From a virus, in IMG/VR virus record IMGVR_UViG_3300021425_000117, positions 1 to 30,549 of that record: a stretch of 30,549 nt of DNA, one strand, 5' to 3'. The notes beneath the pieces are model-generated. The model was not told where the DNA came from. It was given only the letters and a program-made list of their open reading frames with translations, and did not search any database. Each line of letters begins with the position of its first letter. The stretch's first letter is position 1. Shown here in pieces: positions 4,623-29,478 of the stretch. The translations under genes were made by a program, and so were the position numbers.

Positions 4623-7600
4623 ATGGCAATTATTTCTCAGACTGACAAATACGGCAAAACACACCAGTTTCAGATTGCCGGAAATGTTCCGTCTGAAACA
4701 GAATCCGCTCGCGTTCAATCATATATGAACAGAGCTAATGGGGTCAGCGCACCAGAAGAAGCCCCAAAAGCCGGTTTAATTCAGTCTGGTAAGGCTGGTA
4801 TTCAAGGACTGCAATCTGATTTCTATGGCGGCTTGGAAACTATTGGACAGAGTGCCGGAAGTGATTGGCTGCAGGAAATTGGTAGGGCTGGCAGAGAGCG
4901 TAATGCTGCAGAGCAACAGGCCATATTGCCAGATGAGCAGAGAGCAGATCCCGGATTTAATGCTGCCTATGCTAAACAGGCTGTTGGTGAAACTGCACCC
5001 TATATGGGGCTTGGACTAGCGGGTGGTTTTGCTGGTCAAGCCATCGGTGGTGCCATTGGTACTGCCTTATTGCCCGGTCCCGGCACCGTAGCTGGTGGAC
5101 TTGCAGGCAGAGGAATTGGTGCGCTATTAGGCTCTGCTGCTTCTTATTTCCTTCCTCAAACTGGTAGCGCCGCTTCTAGGCAGAGAGATGCTTATGGCAC
5201 TGTAATTAATCCAGAATCAGCTATGGCTGCTGGTGCTTTAACATCTTTAACTGAAGCGGTTATGGATAAATTCCTATTATTGGGTAGATCCAAACTTCTT
5301 AGTGCCGCTGCATCAAAAGGAATACAGATTCCTGAGAAGGTGGTTAAGAGCAAGGTTGCAAATATTCTTGCAGACACCGCTGCTGGTGGTGGCATTGAGG
5401 CCGCTCAAGAAGTCAGTCAGGCTATGATTGAGCGCATTAGCGCTGGCCTTCCTCTTGATGACGAAGAGGCTATGTATGAATACAAGGTCGCTGGCCTCAC
5501 TGCTGCTGGTATCGGCGGTGTTATGGGTGGTGGTGCCGGTGTAATCAAGCATGGGCTTTATGGCAGAAAAGATCGTAAGAATGCTAAAATAGATAAAGCT
5601 ATTAATGAGGATATCGCCAAGCGCACAGATAAATTCAGAGAATTTGCACAACCTGAAAGTTTGAGGATTGAAAATCAAGCTGCAGCATTTGCGCCAGACT
5701 CCAATGAGGTTCGCGGACCTGATGATCCAATGAAGGAAGGCATTGATATTGTTGATCATTCTAGAAGCGCAACCAATAAAAAATATGCCTTGGAAATTTT
5801 TGGGTCTAAAGGCCCATCAGTTGGTGAATATAGCTGGCAGAATGATTCTGGCAAACTGGTAAACCCCGATGGGAAATACACCACACGGGCAGAAGCTGAA
5901 TATGCGGCGAGACAAGACCTAGCCACATTAAAAGAAGAAGAGCGCCAGAGAACGGAAGCGTCTGAAATTATTAGTAAGCAGCTTAATCTTGGTGAAATAA
6001 ATACACCAAGAAGGGCTTTTGGCAGAGAAGATGCTAAATTTAAAAAGCTTGAAGATGTTCAAGAGGCTCTTAAAAAGAATCCCACAACTTTCAGAGATGA
6101 AAATGGAAATGTTGTAAAGGTTAAGCCAAGCGATATTAGCAAGAGCAAAATTAAGGCATTGCATGAAAAGGCTTTACCTAATATTAAACCTGAAGTAAGG
6201 GACAATACTGATCCAAGACTATTGGCTCTTGAGTATCTGTCCAAGCTTGAGCAGAACAATATTGACTGGCGCATTAATGAAGCACAGAAAGCCCTTGAAA
6301 AATACCGCACTGGCAATAAGGCTCTCAACGACAGCACTAAACAGCTTATTGACACCGCTGGTGAAGCTGGTGTTCCTGAGTCTAAGCTTATTGATATCCT
6401 TAAAAACAACAAAACTCAAAATCTCACTCAACAAACCAATGATGCACGAAAGGAGATCAAAAATCTTCTTGATGCTGGAGTGATTGTTCCGGCAACCCCT
6501 GTTAGTCAGGACGGTAGCGAAACTAATTATAAGCTATCTCTCAATAAATCCTACAGAAGAATGTTCCAAATTACGGAGCAGGAAGACACAAAGGGTAGAA
6601 ATAATTTTGTTGTTACTAGCCCAAATGGTGATGTTAATCAGGATATAAATCAAGTCGGTGGAATCCCTGAAGAGCTTAATAAACGAGAAATAACGCCAGA
6701 ATCTCAGGGTGGTGGACCCACCGTCACTCCTCAAGAAAAATATGAAACAGATCGCATTAGAGCAAGCGCTCCTATTAGGGCATTTTCTACTAGACAAGAA
6801 GCTGAAGACTTTATCAAGGAAGAGCTTGGACGAGTAACCACTAAAGAAAGAATAGATCGTGAGAAGAAGCTTGAAGCAGAGCGACAGGCTAAAAACTACG
6901 ACACAATAGAAAATACCAACTTAAGAGCGCAGAAGCTTGGTATTAACAGTGTTAGGCAACAGTTTAGGCGTATTTTGGACCAGATGGGCTTGCCTGATGC
7001 GGCACTTAAGCTTGAAGCTGCATATGATAAGCATAATTCTGGACGCACTATTGAAGGCTCTTACGAACACGACACTATAACAATATTTTGGGATATCTAT
7101 CAAAAGGGCATCTCTGAGGGTGAAATTAAAGCAGAGCTTGCTAAGGTGATGAACCATGAAGTTATTCATGCTGTTCGTCAATTCCTTAAGCCTAATGAAT
7201 GGAAAGATCTGACAAATCACGCTGCCAAAAAGAAGCGGGTGGTTGATGGTGTTGTCCGTCCATACACATATCTTCAGTGGGTCACAAAAACCAATTCCAA
7301 TGAGCAGGGTGTTTTGCGGGATGGAATGACCAAAACTCAGCTTGAAGAAGAAGCTGTTGCTGAAATGTTCCGTGACTGGAATGATAAGCCAGCCGCAATC
7401 ACTGGTCGTCCTGCATCTCTTTTGAACAAAATTGTCAAATTGTTTAAAGCTCTGTTTAGAATGGCAGATGATGACAGGATGAACCAGATCTTCCGCGAGA
7501 TTTTAAGCGGTAAGGTTGCATCGCGCACCGCTGCAGACGGGGTTGAGGGCCGCTCTGAACTGAGACAAACGCTATACAATGCAATTAATAATTATGGTAA

Positions 7601-10600
7601 GCTAGATAAGGAGTTAAAGGATAAAAAGGCAGAGTTTGAAACATTCAAATCTACCTCTTTGGAAGATGCCAGAAGCGGGAAATATGGTCGTGAAACCATC
7701 CCCGGACCTGACGGCACCACCATCAACAAACAGATTGATGAAATCACCAAACAATATGAAACGGACATTGCCACACTTACCGAGCAGGTAGATAACGCCA
7801 ACGCAGCCAAAAATGCCGCTCAGGTAGCGCAAACCACATATATCCAAGATGAACGTATTAAGGAGATCAAAGAAAAATACTCTGGCGCTAAGCTGTCTTC
7901 AATGCCACTTACAATCAATAAGGCTGCTATTCGATTGGGAGATGGTACTATCATAGAATCTCCCGGTAAGGATATTGGTACACACTTTAATGCTATTGTG
8001 AAGTTGTCTGAAACCAGAGATGATCTGGTAAATGATAATGGTGAAATTGATTTTGGCGCTATTGATCCAGAAGAAGGCTTCACCCTTAGCGATGGGTCTT
8101 GGGCTACCAGACAAGAAGCAGCAACCATCGTTAGACAGACAGATGAGAAGCTATATCAAAGACTTAGAAAAGAAATTGGTATAGTTGGCGAAACAATTGA
8201 AGATGATGAAATCACATCTGAAGGTATTAGTAAATTCCAAGATCGGCAAAGGGCTGCTGACGAGCTTAGAAATCGAGTAGCTCGTGCCGCAGCAGACGGA
8301 CAGAATCCACGCAGAGTTCTTCTCCATGCTTCCAATGTTAATAGCAAAGCTGGTAATGCCGGTGATATTGATCCTGATATTTTGGAAAAAATCAAGCAGG
8401 ATGATATTGCCGCACAGCTTGAAATGAAGGAAGCTAGATCAAAGGTCAATCAGGCTATTGAGGAAAACAATAGAGAGATAATCAGATTCTCTTCTATGCC
8501 AATTGAAAATGGTAGGGGCAAGCCCGATGAGTCAGATATGCGTGACTTCATGGGAAATCAGCGGTCGCGCACTGCTGAAGACATGGCAGCGGCAAGTGTT
8601 GAAGAGCCAAACAACGCACAAAGAGAGAACGCTCAGCACGCAGCCACTATCAACGCCTTGTCAGACCATATTGAGAACTACATCAGAAACATTGCATACA
8701 ACTTTACAGAAGAGCAGAAGGCTGCTGAAATAGCACTGAAGATTAGAAATGGCCTTCATGCTTCACTCACATGGACTCAGGAAAGATTCCAAGACCAATA
8801 TGCTCATGTTGGCCAGTTCATGTATGATGTTATGAAGTCTGGTGGGATTATTGTTGAGGGCAACGATCCTAGGAGGCTGCTTACACTATTCCGCTCTAAA
8901 GCTGGTGAAGCTATCAATGCCCGTAAAGATAAGGGTGGATTGTATTGGGTAGCCTCAACTCTTGTAAATGCAGTTAAGAATGATAAGAGTCAGGTTGAGC
9001 CATTAGCTAAACTCATCAAGGCAGTAGATGAATTTGTTAAAGCTAATGAACCCGGTCCAAATGGACCTGCACGGGCAGCGTACACAATTCTAGGCACCAT
9101 AAAACAAAAAGCTGGCACTTCCGGCATGAGCTATGGAGCGATACTTACAGAGTTATACGCAATCGCTAAACACGCGCCACACAGAAATGCTATGGTTCGA
9201 GGTAGACAAGTATGGAGTGTGAATGGGACTGAATATTTGGATAAAAATACCGCTAGAGAAGAAGCATCTGCTAAAAATACCACAGCACAACCAGTTGAAG
9301 AAAGAACAGTTGGAGAGAAAGGATCTGGACTAACAGATGCAGAAGCCGCGCAGATTGTCAGTTACATAGAAAGCCTTCCTAATTTCAACGAGATCTCAAA
9401 AGCCTACGAGGCTATGAGGGATATTATCCGTGACACAAACCGCGTCAGGCGGGCTCAGGGCTTGGTGCCGACATTCTTTGATGACGGTATGGATAACTTC
9501 TATGTTCCCCTCCGTGGTCATGCAGATCCCTATCTTGAAGGATTAGACCTAGAAGGTGAGCAACTATTAAATGAGTATATGCCTAGGGTTGGGAAGGGGT
9601 TGCAGACAAGAGGTCCAGAAGATAAAGCCGTGCTTGGTAGAACTACAATGCCCACTGACATACTTTACACTATAATGGTGCAGAATAGTGAAACCATTGT
9701 CAGAGGTGCAAAGAATGAAATTGGAATGTCACTTGCCAGAATGATTCGTCAGAACTGGAAACTATTCGGTAAACTAATCACATCCACAGATAACTTTGGT
9801 AATGAATTTCAGATGGTGGTTGGAGACTATGATAAGGGTGGTCTTGGAGACAACTCACCTGCAGTTGAAATAGACCCTAAATCTGAAAAACACTTTATTG
9901 ATAAAATCGTTTATGTCATGGAGAATGGGAAAAGGGTTCCAAAGAAGAAAAGAGTTGTAGATAATCAATGGAAAAACAGAGCAGGCGAGGGTGAATATCT
10001 TTTTGAGTTTAAAGAAAATGGTCAATCCCGCCTTATAAGATTTAATGATAAAAGAGTAGCGCAATCACTCACAAGATCATCCGGTGAGATGGGGAATAAC
10101 TGGTTCCTTAAAGGAGCAGCAACAGTCAACCATTATCTATCTATGGCCAATATCACATATAACCCTGAGTTTATTCTGCCAAACTTTATCAGGGACACTA
10201 TGACTGCCGCTATCAACATCAATCAGTTTGAGATGCCAGATCTTACTAAAGATGTTTTGAGTAATATCAAAAGCACTAGCAAGGCACTAAGACAACTTTA
10301 CAGGGAACTTCCTCCTACTGCTGAAACTGAAGAAGCTCATAAATTCATTAAGGAAATGAATGACTTCGGTGGTATCACATCGTTTGCCGGATTGCGTGAT
10401 CTTAACACAGTGATGAAAGATGCCTTGGCTTGGAACGCTACCAACCTTGGTTCCCCCGATGCTGATATTGCTGGCAACCTTGCGCAGAAGGGTGCTTACA
10501 AATTCACAAAGATGATGGAGGATTACAATAGGGTAGCTGAGAACACCACAAGGGCTGCTGTATTTATGGCTCTAAGGAAGAGAGGTTTCTCGGCACAAAA

Positions 10601-11834
10601 GGCTGCTGATGCATCCAAGAGAATGACCGTTGACTTTAACGCTGGTGGTACATGGAAGCCAGCCTTCAACTCACTCTATCTTTTCTATAATGCTAGTGTG
10701 CAGGGTTCTGCCGCTATCCTTGGTGGCTTTGCTAAATCCAAGAAGGTACAGAAGATTGTTTACAGCATTGCAGCCGGTGGAGCAATGTCTGACTTTATCA
10801 ACTCACTGATTAGCCCGATAGATGATGATGGTGAGCCTATCTATGACAAGATTCCAGATTATGTTCTTGAACATAACATTATTATGCTGGATTTCTTTGG
10901 CGTCACTGATCGCGGTTATTTTGCCATTCCATTGCCTTATGGCTACAATGCAGTGTGGAACGCTGGTCGCCACGGAATGAAATCCATGATGGGACGCGAG
11001 ACTGTTGCGGAGGCATCGTTTGGTTTGGTTAGTGGTTTGGTTAATGCCTATAATCCATTTGGTGGAATGAATAGCTTACTAAACTTTGTGGCTCCTACAG
11101 CGATGGACCCTTTTGTGGATTTGAGCCTTAATAGTGATTTTGCCAGCAGACCTATCTATAAAGAAGAGAGCCCCTTCGGAGCAGATGTGCCGGATAGCCA
11201 ACTCTATTGGAATTCGACAAGCGGGCTTGCAAAGGGTGTTGCTGAACTACTGGCTGATCCTCTTGGAGTCACTGGCCTTAGAGATCCAAAGGGGAATGAA
11301 ATTCCGGGAATGATTGAGGTGCATCCAGATTCCATTGAGTATGGATGGGATGCTCTTACTGGCGGTCTTGGTAAATTTATCAGAAGGATGTATGATCTTG
11401 GTGATAAGGCAGTCACCCCCGGTGGGTTTGATGATTTCTCCACAAACACGATACCAATTTTCCGGCGCTTCTATGGTAACATCACCACAAGGAACGATCT
11501 AACATCATATGTTGAGAAGCGTGATTGGGCACTCACTCTCTTGAAAGAGGAGAAGTCCGCAATTGATAATGGTGAGTTTGAGAGACTGAGATATGTTCGT
11601 CAGAACTATAAAGAAGATTTGAAGATTGCCCGTAAGGTTAAGGCACTTAACTCTCAGAGAGTTGCCCTGCAGAGACAAATCAGAAAGATAGTTAATAACA
11701 CCCGTATTCCCCAAGCCGAAAGAGACAAGCGTATCAAGCGGCTCAGGGAAAGACAGGATGAAATTGTGCTAAAGGCTAACACAATGATGAATAAAGAGAA
11801 ATTTGATAAGCCAGCCCTTATGAATGTTATTTAA
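4623..11834 (+). CDS. Giant polyvalent (probably ejected) protein with HEXXH motif and LPD38-like C-terminus, 2403 aa
   Basis: Phages and conjugative elements carry very long polyvalent proteins that are packaged and enter the host with DNA; this one fits by length and by its C-terminal part. Seen in the sequence: Gly/Ala-rich, glycine-zipper-like hydrophobic segments near residues 125-185 and 285-310, which could insert into a membrane. A zincin-type HEVIH motif sits at residues 845-849, and an acidic helix near 907-916 (LEEEAVAEMF) could give the third metal ligand. Long charged helical stretches follow. Around residues 1960-2030 is a block of the LPD38 type (NRVAENTTRAAVF, then MTVDF, then LYLFYNASVQGS). 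A basic coiled coil ends the protein after residue 2290. I see no ADP-ribosyltransferase, helicase or methylase motif. Substrate and timing of the putative protease are unknown; proteolysis inside the virion or in the entered cell are both possible. Confidence 0.85.
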   Translation: MAIISQTDKYGKTHQFQIAGNVPSETESARVQSYMNRANGVSAPEEAPKAGLIQSGKAGIQGLQSDFYGGLETIGQSAGSDWLQEIGRAGRERNAAEQQAILPDEQRADPGFNAAYAKQAVGETAPYMGLGLAGGFAGQAIGGAIGTALLPGPGTVAGGLAGRGIGALLGSAASYFLPQTGSAASRQRDAYGTVINPESAMAAGALTSLTEAVMDKFLLLGRSKLLSAAASKGIQIPEKVVKSKVANILADTAAGGGIEAAQEVSQAMIERISAGLPLDDEEAMYEYKVAGLTAAGIGGVMGGGAGVIKHGLYGRKDRKNAKIDKAINEDIAKRTDKFREFAQPESLRIENQAAAFAPDSNEVRGPDDPMKEGIDIVDHSRSATNKKYALEIFGSKGPSVGEYSWQNDSGKLVNPDGKYTTRAEAEYAARQDLATLKEEERQRTEASEIISKQLNLGEINTPRRAFGREDAKFKKLEDVQEALKKNPTTFRDENGNVVKVKPSDISKSKIKALHEKALPNIKPEVRDNTDPRLLALEYLSKLEQNNIDWRINEAQKALEKYRTGNKALNDSTKQLIDTAGEAGVPESKLIDILKNNKTQNLTQQTNDARKEIKNLLDAGVIVPATPVSQDGSETNYKLSLNKSYRRMFQITEQEDTKGRNNFVVTSPNGDVNQDINQVGGIPEELNKREITPESQGGGPTVTPQEKYETDRIRASAPIRAFSTRQEAEDFIKEELGRVTTKERIDREKKLEAERQAKNYDTIENTNLRAQKLGINSVRQQFRRILDQMGLPDAALKLEAAYDKHNSGRTIEGSYEHDTITIFWDIYQKGISEGEIKAELAKVMNHEVIHAVRQFLKPNEWKDLTNHAAKKKRVVDGVVRPYTYLQWVTKTNSNEQGVLRDGMTKTQLEEEAVAEMFRDWNDKPAAITGRPASLLNKIVKLFKALFRMADDDRMNQIFREILSGKVASRTAADGVEGRSELRQTLYNAINNYGKLDKELKDKKAEFETFKSTSLEDARSGKYGRETIPGPDGTTINKQIDEITKQYETDIATLTEQVDNANAAKNAAQVAQTTYIQDERIKEIKEKYSGAKLSSMPLTINKAAIRLGDGTIIESPGKDIGTHFNAIVKLSETRDDLVNDNGEIDFGAIDPEEGFTLSDGSWATRQEAATIVRQTDEKLYQRLRKEIGIVGETIEDDEITSEGISKFQDRQRAADELRNRVARAAADGQNPRRVLLHASNVNSKAGNAGDIDPDILEKIKQDDIAAQLEMKEARSKVNQAIEENNREIIRFSSMPIENGRGKPDESDMRDFMGNQRSRTAEDMAAASVEEPNNAQRENAQHAATINALSDHIENYIRNIAYNFTEEQKAAEIALKIRNGLHASLTWTQERFQDQYAHVGQFMYDVMKSGGIIVEGNDPRRLLTLFRSKAGEAINARKDKGGLYWVASTLVNAVKNDKSQVEPLAKLIKAVDEFVKANEPGPNGPARAAYTILGTIKQKAGTSGMSYGAILTELYAIAKHAPHRNAMVRGRQVWSVNGTEYLDKNTAREEASAKNTTAQPVEERTVGEKGSGLTDAEAAQIVSYIESLPNFNEISKAYEAMRDIIRDTNRVRRAQGLVPTFFDDGMDNFYVPLRGHADPYLEGLDLEGEQLLNEYMPRVGKGLQTRGPEDKAVLGRTTMPTDILYTIMVQNSETIVRGAKNEIGMSLARMIRQNWKLFGKLITSTDNFGNEFQMVVGDYDKGGLGDNSPAVEIDPKSEKHFIDKIVYVMENGKRVPKKKRVVDNQWKNRAGEGEYLFEFKENGQSRLIRFNDKRVAQSLTRSSGEMGNNWFLKGAATVNHYLSMANITYNPEFILPNFIRDTMTAAININQFEMPDLTKDVLSNIKSTSKALRQLYRELPPTAETEEAHKFIKEMNDFGGITSFAGLRDLNTVMKDALAWNATNLGSPDADIAGNLAQKGAYKFTKMMEDYNRVAENTTRAAVFMALRKRGFSAQKAADASKRMTVDFNAGGTWKPAFNSLYLFYNASVQGSAAILGGFAKSKKVQKIVYSIAAGGAMSDFINSLISPIDDDGEPIYDKIPDYVLEHNIIMLDFFGVTDRGYFAIPLPYGYNAVWNAGRHGMKSMMGRETVAEASFGLVSGLVNAYNPFGGMNSLLNFVAPTAMDPFVDLSLNSDFASRPIYKEESPFGADVPDSQLYWNSTSGLAKGVAELLADPLGVTGLRDPKGNEIPGMIEVHPDSIEYGWDALTGGLGKFIRRMYDLGDKAVTPGGFDDFSTNTIPIFRRFYGNITTRNDLTSYVEKRDWALTLLKEEKSAIDNGEFERLRYVRQNYKEDLKIARKVKALNSQRVALQRQIRKIVNNTRIPQAERDKRIKRLRERQDEIVLKANTMMNKEKFDKPALMNVI

Positions 11835-23567: not shown

Positions 23568-23999
23568 TTATCCTTTATGAACAAGAGCTTGATGATATTC
23601 ACACCATGACCCTATAGGTGAAGCTGACCTATTCCCACAAAACAAATGGACAGAAGCATCATCTGGTGTTGTGGGATATCTACAGGTGGATGGCTTAAGA
23701 TCTAATATACCAACCTCCAAAGACACGGGTATAGGTATGTCTATAACTTTGCGCTTAACAGGTGTAGCTGGAAACTTAACATTGCGCGTGGAGTTTTTCT
23801 TAATATATCTTTTGATTTTCCTATCGTTGCCCCTAGGTGCGCGCGCTGGCCATTTCTGCCTATGCCACATACCAATCACTGAGTTCCTAGTACGTCCCGG
23901 TAAAGTATCGGCTATTACTTGAGCGGAAGCACCATTATCAAATAGCTCTCTAGCAATTTTCAATTCAAGAGAAGTCCAAGGATTGTCAACTGTTTTCAT
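23568..23999 (-). CDS. gcrA: GcrA-family transcription regulator, 143 aa
   Basis: The N-terminal helix-turn-helix (residues 8-50; SAQVIADTLPGRTRNSVIGM, then a W-H-R) matches GcrA, whose typical form is 'SA-IA--LG--TRNAVIGK-HR'. A basic linker (56-85) leads to the C-terminal module C106RYP, F-C121-G and W-C133-E-Y-H, also typical of GcrA. Cellular GcrA of Caulobacter is about 173 residues, so this is somewhat short. GcrA binds sigma70 and activates promoters near CcrM-methylated GANTC sites. A phage copy could divert host RNA polymerase to phage genes or disturb the cell cycle. Start at 23999 has GGAGG upstream. A consensus extended -10 promoter lies just before it. Confidence 0.9.
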   Translation of the reverse strand: MKTVDNPWTSLELKIARELFDNGASAQVIADTLPGRTRNSVIGMWHRQKWPARAPRGNDRKIKRYIKKNSTRNVKFPATPVKRKVIDIPIPVSLEVGILDLKPSTCRYPTTPDDASVHLFCGNRSASPIGSWCEYHQALVHKG

Positions 24000-24038
24000 T
24001 TGATCCTCCATAGGTGATGGGAATAAATCCCACCACCC

Positions 24039-24047
24039 ATTATACCA
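24039..24047 (-). promoter_or_regulatory. Extended -10 promoter before gcrA
   Basis: On the minus strand TGG directly precedes a perfect TATAAT (24047-24039). No good -35 box is seen at 16-18 bases. The wider string AGTGTGGTATAAT resembles the terminase promoter at 29489-29501 (AGTGTGGTATACT). Start expected near 24032, about 33 bases before the gcrA ATG. Confidence 0.6.
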
Positions 24048-24049
24048 CA

Positions 24050-24157
24050 CTAACGGTTATGTCGTAGCTTATTGTACTTAATATGTGGCTGTCCGTTTCT
24101 CATAACTCTGGAAATAACGGCAACCATTTTACCATTCTGGTATAGGTAAGATCCCAT
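24050..24157 (-). CDS. Possible 35-residue micro-protein
   Basis: An ATG shares a base with the stop of the 251-residue gene (TAATG) and opens a 35-codon frame, MGSYLYQNGKMVAVISRVMR and then a basic end, stopping at TAG. It fills most of the gap before gcrA, and TAATG coupling is used elsewhere in this genome. It is basic, has no cysteine and no recognisable motif. Its end lies close to the extended -10 promoter of gcrA, so the gene would be read only from the upstream transcript. Confidence 0.35.
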   Translation of the reverse strand: MGSYLYQNGKMVAVISRVMRNGQPHIKYNKLRHNR

Positions 24158-24912
24158 TACAACATTTCTCTTTTAACAGCACCAATAACCACTCGCTTCA
24201 ATGCGGTGCGTGAAGTTTTGGCAGTTTTACCTAGACCTGTATATGGTATTGATGTTTTACCATCAGGTCTATCTTCAATTTTAAGCCAGCTTAAGTGCAT
24301 AGGCTCTATGGTTAGTTGTGGTTTTGAATTATATTCCTTGATATTACTAATGTCTAATACCAACGCTTCAGCAATTTTAGCTCCTTCAAAATCTGAATTA
24401 TCCTGTATATTATTTATATCCATTATAAACTTACCACTAACAATAGATAACTTTTGTTGATAAACCTTTTGAACATAGCCAGCCCTAAAGTTTAATTTTA
24501 TTGTCTGGCCTCGATATGTTGGTTTAGGTAGTTCATTTGGATCTCCTAGCTGAACATCCCACCTCACTGTAGGTTTCCATGTATCAAGTGCTGTGTTAAT
24601 GCTTGACATTGTATTGTTTATTCTAGTTTGTAGTAAGGTTTTATCTGAGGTTTCAGATATTCTTTCCCTATAATTACTAATAGAATTTCTCATTTCTCTA
24701 AACGCTTCTGCAATGTCGTATAAAAACCTATCTTCATTTAAGTGTTTTATTGAATTGTTAGAGTATGCTAGAACATCTTTAACGATCTTCACCTTACCAT
24801 TGAGAAATGTATTATATAGTTGCTGTAAAGATTCTTTTTGCCTTTCCATGTACTTAAATGCTTCTATTGGTCCGGCTTGAGAATAGTCTTTAAGGCTATA
24901 TTTGCTGGTCAT
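24157..24912 (-). CDS. Hypothetical protein, 251 aa
   Basis: Not recognised. I prefer ATG 24912 (MTSKYSLKDYS, GGA upstream) over 24927. The first 120 residues are helical and Asn/Gln-rich, with a possible coiled coil (EAFREMRNSISNYRERISE). The second half is beta-rich and basic, with WDVQLGDPNELPKPTYRG and LNFRAGYVQKVYQQKL, and ends in a very basic tail (TSRTALKRVVIGAVKREML). It follows the VWA/metallopeptidase gene, with a GC-rich hairpin and the second 34-bp dyad element between. It may be a substrate or partner of that system, or an unrelated DNA-binding early protein; nothing decides this. Confidence 0.65.
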   Translation of the reverse strand: MTSKYSLKDYSQAGPIEAFKYMERQKESLQQLYNTFLNGKVKIVKDVLAYSNNSIKHLNEDRFLYDIAEAFREMRNSISNYRERISETSDKTLLQTRINNTMSSINTALDTWKPTVRWDVQLGDPNELPKPTYRGQTIKLNFRAGYVQKVYQQKLSIVSGKFIMDINNIQDNSDFEGAKIAEALVLDISNIKEYNSKPQLTIEPMHLSWLKIEDRPDGKTSIPYTGLGKTAKTSRTALKRVVIGAVKREML

Positions 24913-24938
24913 TTCTAATCCAATCATATAAGGGTGAT

Positions 24939-24960: not shown

Positions 24961-24993
24961 GATGGTAACATATATGTTACTAAAGTTAATCAG
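24960..24993 (-). promoter_or_regulatory. 34-bp dyad element, copy 2
   Basis: It matches 13825-13858 at 32 of 34 bases. Here the centre GTAACATATATGTTAC (24965-24980) is a perfect 16-bp palindrome. Its upper end covers the last codons of the VWA gene and its lower end is 47 bases before the ATG at 24912. Position and orientation relative to the downstream gene match copy 1, supporting a regulatory role. Confidence 0.65.
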
Positions 24994-26104
24994 CGGGGAT
25001 TTTAATCACCTCCCCAAAAGGAGCCTCCTCGCTACCGGTAGTGGCCCACAATACAGGGTAGTTAGGGGCAATACCAGCTAGATCACTGTGATCTATATAC
25101 AAATCAGTAAAAAAGATTAAGGAATCAGGTTGAATACCCTGATCTTCAACCCACTTAAACACAGGTGCTAAGTTAGTGCCACCGCAGGCATACCTACGCT
25201 TATCATCGAATTCCTCATCAGCCTCATAAGTTTGTGTATGGGCAATTACAGTATCGCACCATACAACATGAGTCTTATATGGCTTCAACTCATTGTGTAT
25301 GTGACGCAAGTTACCAAGGAACTTAGACAATTCAACCTTACTCACTGACCCACTGGAATCAATACCAATCACAATTTCACCGGGACATTTATAATCAACC
25401 ATAGGAACACAAGCACCCTGATAAACTGCATAGATAGAATTAAACCTACGATAACTCCAATCATCAGGATTAGTGCCGCCGATAAATGTTTGCATACGCT
25501 CCTCCCAATCAATAGAAGGTTTGGAATATTCATCAATTAATCCATCAAAGCCTTGTGGCATTTTACCATGAGCTTTAGCAGATTGTGCAGCCTGTAATAC
25601 ACTCACCTTAATGTTAGCTTCTTCCATAGATGTTTTAGCTGCATCACCTACTGATTCGCTATCTTCTACCATACCCCATTCACAAGGTTGACGGCGTTTA
25701 GCCTCCTCTTCTATTTCGGGTTGATTATATATCTTCTCAGCAGTCCAGCCTCTATATTTCTCATCAATCAACCCACCTTCAGGCAATTTAAAGCCATTAT
25801 CAACCAACATAACATTGATTGCATAATCACAGGCAATGTTCCATCTAACGGGATCTCTATCGCCGCGCCTTAGATGGTGGAGAAAGGCAATGTGCATAAC
25901 CTCATGCGCCATAACCCCAACAACTTCTTCCTTAGTTAAGGAGTTTACCCATTCTTCGTGATACCAGATATATTTACCGTCAGTAGCCATAGTATATACA
26001 CCAGCTTTTTGACTGGATGGATACCGCATAGCTAATGACCCAAAGAAAGGATGTGAAGTAATAAGCTTCACCTTAGCTAATGTTATGTTGTCATATTTAG
26101 CCAT
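24986..26104 (-). CDS. VWA-domain protein with zincin-type metallopeptidase domain, 372 aa
   Basis: N-terminal metallopeptidase-like domain: AHEVMHIAFLHH with H67-E68-x-x-H71, followed by RWNIACDYAINVML, typical of the putative metallopeptidase that accompanies VWA domains (DUF2201/PF13203-like). C-terminal VWA-like domain: MIDAS residues D249-x-S251-x-S253 in GIDSSGSV, T310 in CGGTNL and D334 in FFTD. The segment between (residues 130-200) is charged and probably a linker. VWA proteins paired with MoxR ATPases act as adaptors for remodelling target proteins, and here a protease-like domain is fused. The gene is third after the MoxR-like and partner genes, spaced 12 bases, with GGAG upstream. 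Cellular target unknown. Confidence 0.88.
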   Translation of the reverse strand: MAKYDNITLAKVKLITSHPFFGSLAMRYPSSQKAGVYTMATDGKYIWYHEEWVNSLTKEEVVGVMAHEVMHIAFLHHLRRGDRDPVRWNIACDYAINVMLVDNGFKLPEGGLIDEKYRGWTAEKIYNQPEIEEEAKRRQPCEWGMVEDSESVGDAAKTSMEEANIKVSVLQAAQSAKAHGKMPQGFDGLIDEYSKPSIDWEERMQTFIGGTNPDDWSYRRFNSIYAVYQGACVPMVDYKCPGEIVIGIDSSGSVSKVELSKFLGNLRHIHNELKPYKTHVVWCDTVIAHTQTYEADEEFDDKRRYACGGTNLAPVFKWVEDQGIQPDSLIFFTDLYIDHSDLAGIAPNYPVLWATTGSEEAPFGEVIKIPAD

Positions 26105-26116
26105 AGTTCTTATCTC

Positions 26117-27010
26117 CTATGCTGCCAGCAAACTATTGATATATTTAGCCATATCGTCAGCCTTCTGAGCTATGGCATCACGCTCCCACTTAGACTCCTT
26201 CAATTCATCAGCACCCATTGAACAAAGATCCTCCTTAATCTTCTCGCTAAGGCTATCTAGCTCAGGGTCTTTAGCTATATTAAGAAATGGCAAGGTGTTA
26301 GCTAGTTCATTCATGTTTGTGATAAGGGATTTCCTAAAGTTACCCTTGAATGTACCGCGCTTATGATCATCAGGTTTCTCATAAGCGAGAAGCCTATCCC
26401 GCATATCTTCAATAGCATCCAACGCCCTGATAAATGCAGCCTTAGATGCTGAGCCTAGTGTATCCCTAACCTCCTCCTCAATATCGGATCGCAATGCGTC
26501 CATGTTATCGCTATCCAGATCCAATATCCAGTTACTAGCTTCCGGCATTGGGTAATATTTAATGTCAAAGTAAAAGGCATTAAGGATTTCCTGAGTGCCG
26601 GGAAACTCATGCTCCTTCCACATACTGCCTAGCTCATTGATCCTAGCACTCCTAATAGTGGGGAGAACATTACCAAGGGCTTCAACAGCAGCCTCATATT
26701 GATCTTTATATTTACCCATCTCCTCAATGTGTTTGTCAAAGCCCACTGTAGCTAGAATCCTTGGACCCTTATGAGCAAATCCCGGAAAGGTGAGGTTATA
26801 GTGGGCCATACGAGCCTGACCACTGATGTAGGTAAGATCCTTAAGATGGTGTGGTCCAATGATGTTCTTGACATATGTTCCCGCATCATTAGACGCTCCC
26901 TTATCGGTGACAACTTCCTGAGTTACATCCTTATCAACTTTCTTAGGGTTGAACGCACCGATGTTAATATCGGCAAGCATTGCACGCTCTGTAAGTTTGA
27001 AGCTAGTCAT
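26117..27010 (-). CDS. MoxR/VWA-associated protein, DUF3150-like, 297 aa
   Basis: Located between the MoxR-like ATPase and the VWA/metallopeptidase genes, the place where phage and prophage copies of this system carry a protein annotated DUF3150-like. Visible features: an N-terminal segment with LADINIGAF and KKVDKDVTQEV; an amphipathic central block GKYKDQYEAAVEALGNVL with a SARINELG turn; and long C-terminal helices ending in a basic-acidic repeat (SKWERDAIAQKADDMAKYI). No enzyme motif was seen. It may bridge the AAA+ ring and the VWA protein or be the substrate selector. Family naming rests on recall of neighbourhood and of the helical layout, so confidence in the family is moderate. Confidence 0.7.
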   Translation of the reverse strand: MTSFKLTERAMLADINIGAFNPKKVDKDVTQEVVTDKGASNDAGTYVKNIIGPHHLKDLTYISGQARMAHYNLTFPGFAHKGPRILATVGFDKHIEEMGKYKDQYEAAVEALGNVLPTIRSARINELGSMWKEHEFPGTQEILNAFYFDIKYYPMPEASNWILDLDSDNMDALRSDIEEEVRDTLGSASKAAFIRALDAIEDMRDRLLAYEKPDDHKRGTFKGNFRKSLITNMNELANTLPFLNIAKDPELDSLSEKIKEDLCSMGADELKESKWERDAIAQKADDMAKYINSLLAA

Positions 27011-27032
27011 TGTGTAGTTCCTTTATGTTAAA

Positions 27033-28091
27033 CTATTCACCAAGAATAAGATCACGACCGTTAGTGGCAAGCCATTTAGTGCCTTCCTTAGTAGCAGTCA
27101 GCGTCTTGTCACGGGTAAAAGCATCCTTCATCAACAGCATACCCCATTCACCGGGCATCCTAGCTGCATATTGAAGGATAGCACCAATATTCTTTCTGTT
27201 CATGTAAACACTAAGCATACCAATCACGGCATACAAAAGATCTGGCCTATCTGTGCCGAAGATAGGTGCATTATCAGGGTCATTAACAATGCTCTCAGGA
27301 CGGGGTAGATCTTGATATACCTGACGGAATCCTTGAAAGGCTCCAGCAGGGCCAGCCCCTATCTGTCCGGCAATGCAAGCCATTTCACCATACTGACTAA
27401 GTCCCATCTTGATAATCTCACTAACCTTAGTCCATGAGCGCTGAGTAGCGTTCTTATCCAATGCAGGGTCAAAGTTATTCCATTCGGCTTGAGCAAACTG
27501 TAGGTATGCCGTCACCATAGGATGCACACCATTAGCTTTGGCCATTTCAACCCATTCTTTAAAATCAGGCTGAATGAATAGATCAGTGGTGCGATCACGG
27601 ATCTGACTAGGTGTTGCGGTAGTGCCAGCTTTAGCTGATGCCGGATTAGATGCCAGCATCAATGTGGCGCAATCACTGAGTTGATATGGACCCATCTTAT
27701 GCTCATTAAGGGCTTCACCCATAATGTTCTTAGCCATGAGGCTACATTGTGCCCATTCATCAAACAGGATAAGCCATTTACCCTCAGTCTTGAGCCAATC
27801 AGGTTTGTTGGTATACATTTCTCTAGCAGCTTCATCAAAGAACTGCATACCCCCGATAACAATTGGATCCATCTGAGTTAAACAACGTGAATAAAACTCC
27901 ACACCAGCTTTCTTAGCTGCGCTCTTACTCATCGCAGTTTTACCAATACCCGGATCACCAATCAACTGAAGGACAATCCTATCCCGCCATCCCTTAATGG
28001 GGTTTTCTGCGAGGTGATTATTATACTCAATAGCACCAAGAATAATCTCTTCAGCCTGCTTGATGGTGACATTCCAAGTGTTATTAGACAT
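27033..28091 (-). CDS. MoxR-like AAA+ ATPase, 352 aa
   Basis: Walker A at G45-DPGIG-K51-T52, Walker B LILF-D111-E112, sensor-1 LMLASN149 and RDR (165-167) as arginine-finger candidates place it in the MoxR branch of AAA+ ATPases. These proteins form hexamers and act with VWA proteins to mature or remodel other proteins using ATP. The size and the C-terminal alpha-helical lid (residues 230-340) fit. It is followed by its two partners with short gaps and similar ribosome sites (AAGGAACTA before both this and the next gene), so the three are expressed together. In this phage it could remodel the host transcription or replication machinery or a virion part. Confidence 0.92.
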   Translation of the reverse strand: MSNNTWNVTIKQAEEIILGAIEYNNHLAENPIKGWRDRIVLQLIGDPGIGKTAMSKSAAKKAGVEFYSRCLTQMDPIVIGGMQFFDEAAREMYTNKPDWLKTEGKWLILFDEWAQCSLMAKNIMGEALNEHKMGPYQLSDCATLMLASNPASAKAGTTATPSQIRDRTTDLFIQPDFKEWVEMAKANGVHPMVTAYLQFAQAEWNNFDPALDKNATQRSWTKVSEIIKMGLSQYGEMACIAGQIGAGPAGAFQGFRQVYQDLPRPESIVNDPDNAPIFGTDRPDLLYAVIGMLSVYMNRKNIGAILQYAARMPGEWGMLLMKDAFTRDKTLTATKEGTKWLATNGRDLILGE

Positions 28092-28138: not shown

Positions 28139-28546
28139 CTACGCCGCTTTGTCATGCGACAAATCGTCGCGCATTGCTTTAAGTTCTTCTATAGTTTCCC
28201 AACATTTTACAGTAGCTTCTCTCTTAGTGCTGACCTTAATAGGGTATCCTAGTTGAGTTAAAAGAAGCAGTTTCATGTCGTCTAAAGTGAGATTCCAATT
28301 AGTGTGAGTTGATTGTACGTTTTTGCCTTCAATAATTTGATACCCATATACTGAGTAGTCTCCCTCTTTTATATAATTACCCTTTTTATAATCGTTTATT
28401 GACTGAAATGCTGAATTTGTTTTTATAGAATGATTAATATAATATATCATTCTTCCAGTTCTGATCTTGAAATGATGCCAATGCTCAACACTCCAATCTG
28501 AAAACATACGAGAAACCCTATAGGGTAGTTTATGTAATTCAGTCAT
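28139..28546 (-). CDS. Hypothetical protein, 135 aa
   Basis: Not recognised. ATG 28546 has AAGGA eight bases upstream. The product has an aromatic, basic N-terminal part (FSDWSVEHWHHFKIRTGRMIYYI), a YSVYGYQIIEGK strand and a helical end (TIEELKAMRDDLSHD). The last codons contain a 17-base string that recurs, with the same spacing to TTGCTT, upstream of the terminase promoter (29453-29478). No known active-site motif is present. Its position just before the MoxR-like gene suggests an early gene. Confidence 0.55.
   Translation of the reverse strand: MTELHKLPYRVSRMFSDWSVEHWHHFKIRTGRMIYYINHSIKTNSAFQSINDYKKGNYIKEGDYSVYGYQIIEGKNVQSTHTNWNLTLDDMKLLLLTQLGYPIKVSTKREATVKCWETIEELKAMRDDLSHDKAA
28154..28179. 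repeat. 17-base repeat with TTGCTT, copy 1 (inside a coding end)
   Basis: ATGCGACAAATCGTCGC at 28154-28170 is followed, after three bases, by TTGCTT; the same arrangement occurs at 29453-29478. Here it lies in the C-terminal codons of the 135-residue gene. Its GCGAC/GTCGC arms can pair. No -10 box follows at a suitable distance here. Confidence 0.6.
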
Positions 28547-29452: not shown

Positions 29453-29478
29453 ATGCGACAAATCGTCGCAGGTTGCTT
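29453..29478. repeat. 17-base repeat with TTGCTT, copy 2 (over the terminase promoter)
   Basis: The same 17 bases as at 28154-28170, followed by AGG and TTGCTT. Here TTGCTT is the -35 box of the promoter at 29473-29501. The outer bases also pair as AACCTG/CAGGTT. A protein binding this dyad would sit at the -35 region. Confidence 0.6.

Follow-up and report, generated by a model that had tools for sequence, protein, structure and literature searches.

The Three-Gene Locus

The window analyzed here is a phage fragment of 30,549 bases, the IMG/VR virus record IMGVR_UViG_3300021425_000117. Its minus strand carries, from 28091 to 24986, three consecutive genes encoding a MoxR-type AAA+ ATPase, a helical protein resembling DUF3150 (further referred to as the partner), and a protein joining a metallopeptidase-like domain to a von Willebrand factor type A (VWA) domain (peptidase-VWA). 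The features of this triad, with the evidence for each, are as follows (aa, amino acids; ORF, open reading frame):

27033..28091, minus strand: MoxR-type AAA+ ATPase, 352 aa (phrog_1297, invariant motifs, Midasin profile match)
26117..27010, minus strand: DUF3150-like helical partner, 297 aa (profile–profile comparison, fold, same position in 91 loci)
24986..26104, minus strand: metallopeptidase-like and VWA protein, 372 aa (PF13203, PF09967, phrog_1314, AlphaFold2 model)
25892..25906, minus strand: HEVMH codons, residues 67–71 of the ORF starting at 26104 (read from the ORF)

All three ORFs are intact, with spacers of 22 nucleotides (nt) between the ATPase and the partner and 12 nt between the partner and peptidase-VWA, and the motifs AAGGA, AAGGA, and GGAG, as read from the sequence, precede the three ATGs. 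A preliminary description of this DNA had proposed a MoxR-like ATPase with Walker A, Walker B, and sensor-1 motifs, a DUF3150-like partner, and both HEVMH and a full metal ion-dependent adhesion site (MIDAS) in one protein, all encoded in order as one unit in an early-type setting, and these assignments are borne out by the data given below.

ATPase and Peptidase-VWA

The window ATPase matches phrog_1297, annotated as “ATPase” (E = 1.7e-58), the Pfam matches to AAA_3 and AAA being weak and below the cut-off. A profile built from 30 viral relatives has the AAA modules of Midasin as its best solved match (E = 6e-32), followed by Clp ATPases and CbbQ-type proteins. The protein has a Walker A motif GDPGIGKT (G48, K51), Walker B FDEW (D111), sensor-1 N149, and arginine R167, and these five residues are unvarying across its 30 viral relatives; judging from its position, R167 is the presumed arginine finger.

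Both DUF2201 domains are recognized in peptidase-VWA well above their cut-offs: PF13203 (DUF2201_N) with E = 2e-45 and 156 bits (cut-off 23.2), and the VWA-like PF09967 (DUF2201) with E = 4.4e-22 and 78.9 bits (cut-off 26.4). The AlphaFold2 model has a mean predicted local distance difference test (pLDDT) score of 86.7, and the fold of its VWA domain matches that of integrin I domains (alignment Z = 13.8, 2.7 Å over 131 residues), while the likeness of the peptidase-like domain to M48 peptidases is weak at the sequence level. The protein also matches phrog_1314 (E = 2.3e-92), whose label, “HNH endonuclease,” was ruled out, as the domains are those of DUF2201. In many RefSeq phage records, too, members of this family are labeled “HNH endonuclease” or “homing endonuclease,” which is probably a propagated misannotation.

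The MIDAS of the window protein is formed by D249, S251, S253, T310, and D334. The first three residues are kept in all 163 homologs, T310 in 161 and D334 in 162 of the 163, and at least one of the proteins deviating at the latter two positions (locus L161) has a split reading frame. The DxSxS part was absent from our search patterns, so that the way the homologs were collected does not account for its conservation; one genome-scan pattern contained the last MIDAS aspartate. The HExxH motif is retained in approximately 97% of the relatives (H67 in 160/163, E68 in 159/163), but it was among the search patterns, and part of this conservation follows from the search itself; the phage loci selected by BLAST carry it too. 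As the count uses a fixed residue range and can miscall proteins with longer N-termini, we list as clear losses only those read residue by residue. There are at least four of them, L017 (SATVLH), L144 (LKVMQ), L171 (QLILH), and L072 (HSVMH), all of which retain both the partner gene and the MIDAS; L144, where other residues are also changed, may be decaying. Hence, of the two motifs, conservation is complete for MIDAS DxSxS but not for HExxH. Since HExxH is lost in these partner-bearing homologs while the MIDAS is kept, the core activity looks like remodeling rather than cleavage, and the cleavage contemplated in the preliminary description is weakened as an essential activity: it is possible in the window, and seems dispensable in some relatives.

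The DUF3150-Like Partner

The window partner has no match in Pfam or PHROG scans, and in particular no hit reaching the gathering cut-off of DUF3150 (PF11348). A relative from locus L077 barely clears this cut-off (25.2 vs. 24.9 bits). Profile–profile comparison of the partner alignment with the canonical DUF3150 alignment yields a probability of 90% (E = 1.8e-6), and 93% for a wider partner set, compared to less than 1% for all controls (the reversed partner, peptidase-VWA, and two families found near other loci, Nmad5-like S1 and S2). The AlphaFold2 model (pLDDT 85) consists mainly of long helices, and the search for similar folds in BFVD retrieves viral proteins, one of them named DUF3150 (template modeling score 0.76, E = 1e-15). 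The search in PDB produced no significant match; generic helical bundles (best Z = 9) were not used for establishing the identity of the partner. Taken together, the profile comparison and the predicted fold indicate that the partner is a distant relative of DUF3150, rather than a member of the Pfam family. As for the third components of the ternary MoxR-vWA conflict systems, the Pfam scan, with no search specifically aimed at these families, yielded no VMAP, iSTAND, FtsH, or propeller match for the partner.

Scanning viral contigs with the single partner protein produced no relatives, and the mixed partner alignment is too diverse for scanning; partner relatives were reached through the peptidase-VWA alignment. 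A full-text literature search for DUF3150, with most subscription journals outside its coverage, retrieved no paper on this family, and in the literature searched we found no account of the third gene as part of the ATPase/VWA unit; we claim novelty within that coverage.

Distribution and Gene Order

Relatives of peptidase-VWA have been identified in 539 of 50,697 phage records and on 63 plasmids; in the scan of viral contigs, 526 relatives were confirmed among the first 600 candidates, and 80 were kept. The ATPase is present in nearly every locus reaching far enough upstream, and in the kept viral contigs wherever they do so. Loci with the partner number 33 in viruses (the window and MinM2 among them), five on plasmids, and 58 in bacteria. 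The order ATPase, partner, peptidase-VWA on one strand is observed in 91 of these 96 loci (30 viral, 5 plasmid, and 56 bacterial), and thus the triad is not a chance arrangement. Stop and start codons of adjacent triad genes overlap in a minority of loci.

The bacterial loci include those from Burkholderiales, Acidobacteria, and Cloacimonadota, as well as Desulfosarcina and Dechloromonas chromosomes. Hence the triad is not specific to phages: the same ordered genes reside on plasmids and in bacterial genomes. Some plasmid triads are located near PRTRC genes, and two are also near type IV secretion genes. PRTRC genes of the ThiF family occur within approximately 9 kb of the triad in L016, L018, L019, L106, L121, and L127 (plasmids and some Burkholderiales contigs). 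A DNA-level search of phages with the window gave no matches.

A quick tree was computed for 94 peptidase-VWA proteins. It places the window in a viral set of 18 rows (support 95) in which no other member has a recognized DUF3150-like gene close by; most viruses with the partner instead cluster with plasmid and bacterial sequences. The branch of the window is long, and its exact placement is unsure. As the partner of the window is paired with a clade otherwise having no recognized DUF3150-like gene nearby, the tree hints that the partner is exchangeable.

Comparison With Known Systems

The preliminary description had called the role of such a unit in phage infection not established. The ATPase/peptidase-VWA pair has already been recognized in phages, both as a part of the N4-like core and in a proposal on virion assembly, but we came across no experiment on its function in bacterial phages in the literature searched. 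In N4, gp24 and gp25 are an AAA ATPase and a vWFA protein, encoded by middle genes that belong to the core of N4-like phages (PMC4193335, PMC2784036). As in the window, the homologous Schitoviridae genes lie close together in the early/middle region, but in the loci read the pair has no DUF3150-like gene between its members, where the window has the partner; the proteins are approximately 29–31% identical to those of the window and fall into a different part of the peptidase-VWA tree. Jumbo phages of group 2.2 have an N-terminal metallopeptidase fused to vWA beside MoxR, again similar to the window, and a role in virion assembly and processing has been proposed (Iyer et al., 2021, PMC7824862); no third component is described there.

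Three genes in the same order are found in Burkholderiales plasmids, where they are annotated as an ATP-binding protein, a hypothetical protein, and a VWA-like protein. Identity to the window is 30–36% for the VWA protein and 26–29% for the partner. These plasmid triads differ from the window in that Walker B is DD, not DE, in most of the aligned ATPases, some have no HExxH, and some are close to the PRTRC or type IV secretion genes mentioned above.

Cassettes with canonical DUF3150 constitute another type. IncC and other plasmids resemble the window in that a mobile element carries a DUF3150-family gene together with genes for an ATPase and a VWA protein, but this VWA protein is of the CobT type and has no DUF2201 peptidase domain, and the ATPase has the CbbQ C-terminus. 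Among 398 genomes from a single phylum, nine encode canonical DUF3150; in L189, L190, L191, and L195 it is flanked by an ATPase-sized gene on one side and a long gene on the other, and Pfam confirms AAA_5/CbbQ_C, DUF3150, and CobT/VWA in these cassettes where tested, the ATPase-sized gene of L195 having no Pfam hit. DUF3150 is encoded on 1168 plasmids, of which 978 are predicted to be conjugative. In three annotated plasmid examples the ATPase, DUF3150, and VWA genes are together, and in an IncC plasmid the ATPase and DUF3150 genes are separated by ssb, bet, and an exonuclease gene. In pCAR1, ORF100–103 include MoxR and VWA genes that are conserved in R478, Rts1, SXT, and R391, and a role in transfer has been suggested (PMC2642839).

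Coupling of an AAA+ ring to a VWA/MIDAS domain is also known for NorQD and Midasin/Rea1, the NorQD structures showing the VWA protein in the MoxR ring and a twisting mechanism (PMC13036017); these systems have cellular targets and, unlike the window, neither a peptidase domain nor a DUF3150-like subunit. In the archaeal Acidianus two-tailed virus (ATV), MoxR protein p618 binds VWA protein p892, which led to the suggestion of a role in tail development (reviewed in PMC4124505). Thus, the pair in phages is already known, while the three-gene form common to phages, plasmids, and bacteria appears undescribed.

Gene Neighborhood

In agreement with the early-type setting, replication genes share the record with the triad in CRP-7 (polymerase, exonuclease, primase), SBP1 (helicase, polymerase), MinM2, and the window, which encodes a primase-helicase, Erf, and an exonuclease elsewhere. 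Genes for an Nmad5-like protein, a 354-aa protein, an HslV-family peptidase, DNA polymerase, exonuclease, and helicase come after the triad in L063, where the terminase is on the strand opposite to the triad. The frequent presence of replication and recombination neighbors favors an early, DNA-linked role, without proving it.

The Nmad5-like gene occurs in L063 (9227-9907), L040 (7364-8041), and approximately 40 other viral loci; it is found downstream of peptidase-VWA in partner-type phages, and in another clade it resides between the ATPase and peptidase-VWA. The partner (P), the Nmad5-like family S1, and family S2 were initially regarded as alternatives for one third slot. This was scaled back, with S1 being also downstream in P-type phages and S2, as much as 4 kb away from the ATPase, possibly being an unrelated neighbor. 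The idea of Nmad5 as an inhibitor of Tmn was dropped as well, since nmad5 is reported as a gene whose mutation gives escape (PMC11846954). In L063 (10971-11435) and in nine other viral loci, only a few genes separate the triad from the downstream HslV-family gene (phrog_1040, E = 2.4e-21), which places another protease close to an ATPase of the unfoldase type.

Proposed Function

We suggest that the window carries one copy of a three-component, ATP-driven protein-remodeling cassette of mobile elements, whose target probably belongs to early DNA metabolism, and give this interpretation an even chance of being correct. From the observed gene content and order, motif conservation, distribution, and neighbors we infer the following scheme. 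The MoxR ATPase would assemble into a ring, the VWA domain would dock on it and grip the target through the MIDAS metal, and the DUF3150-like helical protein would serve as a dedicated subunit or as an adaptor for the substrate. Turnover of ATP would then twist or unfold the target, and the zincin-like domain, whose HExxH is intact in the window, may clip it. The target would most likely be a protein of the host or of the element itself that belongs to early DNA metabolism (to replication or recombination, or one that acts on incoming DNA), rather than a virion protein.

Several observations weigh against this interpretation. Clear loss of HExxH is rare (4/163), and most copies may be active peptidases. 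As Walker B is mostly DD in the plasmid ATPases, their ATP turnover may differ from that of the DE forms. The partner does not seem to be universally needed, as Schitoviridae have the pair alone. Finally, early genes of phages are generally clustered, and hence the neighborhood says little about function.

The ATPase and peptidase-VWA could instead fold and cut structural proteins in virion assembly or maturation, as suggested for jumbo phages by Iyer et al. by analogy with ATV tail development (PMC7824862; for p618 and p892, PMC4124505). The record of the PA5oct ATPase (L005:978-2093) bears an “ESI-MS/MS” (electrospray ionization tandem mass spectrometry) note, as do the structural proteins of this phage, which may mean detection in the virion, and in N4-like roseophages the gp24/gp25 homologs lie close to a second structural module (PMC4193335). 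However, the N4 middle genes of the pair are not in the virion protein list of the latter study, the triad sits with replication genes and, in L063, opposite to the terminase, and the same triad is found on conjugative plasmids and in bacterial genomes. As plasmids make no virions, a role restricted to the virion is unlikely for this triad type, and we regard assembly or maturation as quite improbable. Slightly less probable still is a metallochaperone that would insert a metal ion or mature a metalloenzyme in the manner of NorQD and CobST-type systems. MoxR/VWA pairs of this kind do include NorQD (PMC13036017), and the canonical plasmid cassettes carry CbbQ_C ATPases and CobT-like VWA proteins, but no common metalloenzyme gene was seen beside viral, plasmid, and bacterial triads, although no systematic search was made, and the peptidase domain would be left unexplained.

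A machine of host takeover or counter-defense, unfolding or cutting a host defense protein, deserves somewhat more credit, being doubtful rather than improbable. Phages and conjugative plasmids, both of which carry the triad or DUF3150, face the same host barriers; moreover, the Nmad5-like family fills or adjoins the slot in related phages, and mutation of nmad5 in Dhillonvirus alters sensitivity to Tmn (PMC11846954). On the other hand, inhibition of Tmn by Nmad5 is not demonstrated in that study, the S1 matches to Nmad5 are mostly below the cut-off, and N4-like phages have the pair among their core genes (PMC4193335), which is more housekeeping-like than expected of a patchy counter-defense gene.

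The remodeling cassette may be generalized, although we offer this extension tentatively and consider it unlikely as a whole: phages and conjugative plasmids would share a general unfoldase of mobile elements that has a DUF3150-family protein as its dedicated third subunit, acts with either peptidase-VWA or a CobT-like VWA protein, and remodels a host or element protein during the establishment of incoming DNA, an exchangeable third slot directing related phage machines to different targets. The ATPase/vWA pair represents conserved genes of N4-like phages whose function is unassigned, and the third gene, together with the plasmid and bacterial cassettes, shifts the likely function away from virion building. 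The conserved third gene makes a three-protein complex testable. Moreover, phage gp24/gp25 and the plasmid ATPase–DUF3150–VWA cassettes become linked by one shared component, so that a result obtained for one informs the other.

Other Features of the Window

A 256-aa protein encoded downstream of the triad (24157-24927, minus strand) has no relative among the loci fetched. The plus strand encodes a 2403-aa protein (4623-11834) with an LPD38 domain near the C-terminus (E = 1.6e-31), the adjoining 1186-aa and 343-aa proteins being without matches. The minus-strand gene at 23568-24050 encodes a GcrA-like cell-cycle regulator (PF07750, E = 2.5e-15), which suggests an alphaproteobacterial host. Scans of the window for promoters and terminators produced nothing above chance. 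A palindromic 17-mer, GCGACGATTTGTCGCAT, occurs in two exact copies:

28154..28170, minus strand: copy 1, 62 nt before the ATPase start
29453..29469, minus strand: copy 2, upstream of small genes preceding the triad

None of 100 shuffles yielded two copies, and the palindrome is a possible control element upstream of the triad.

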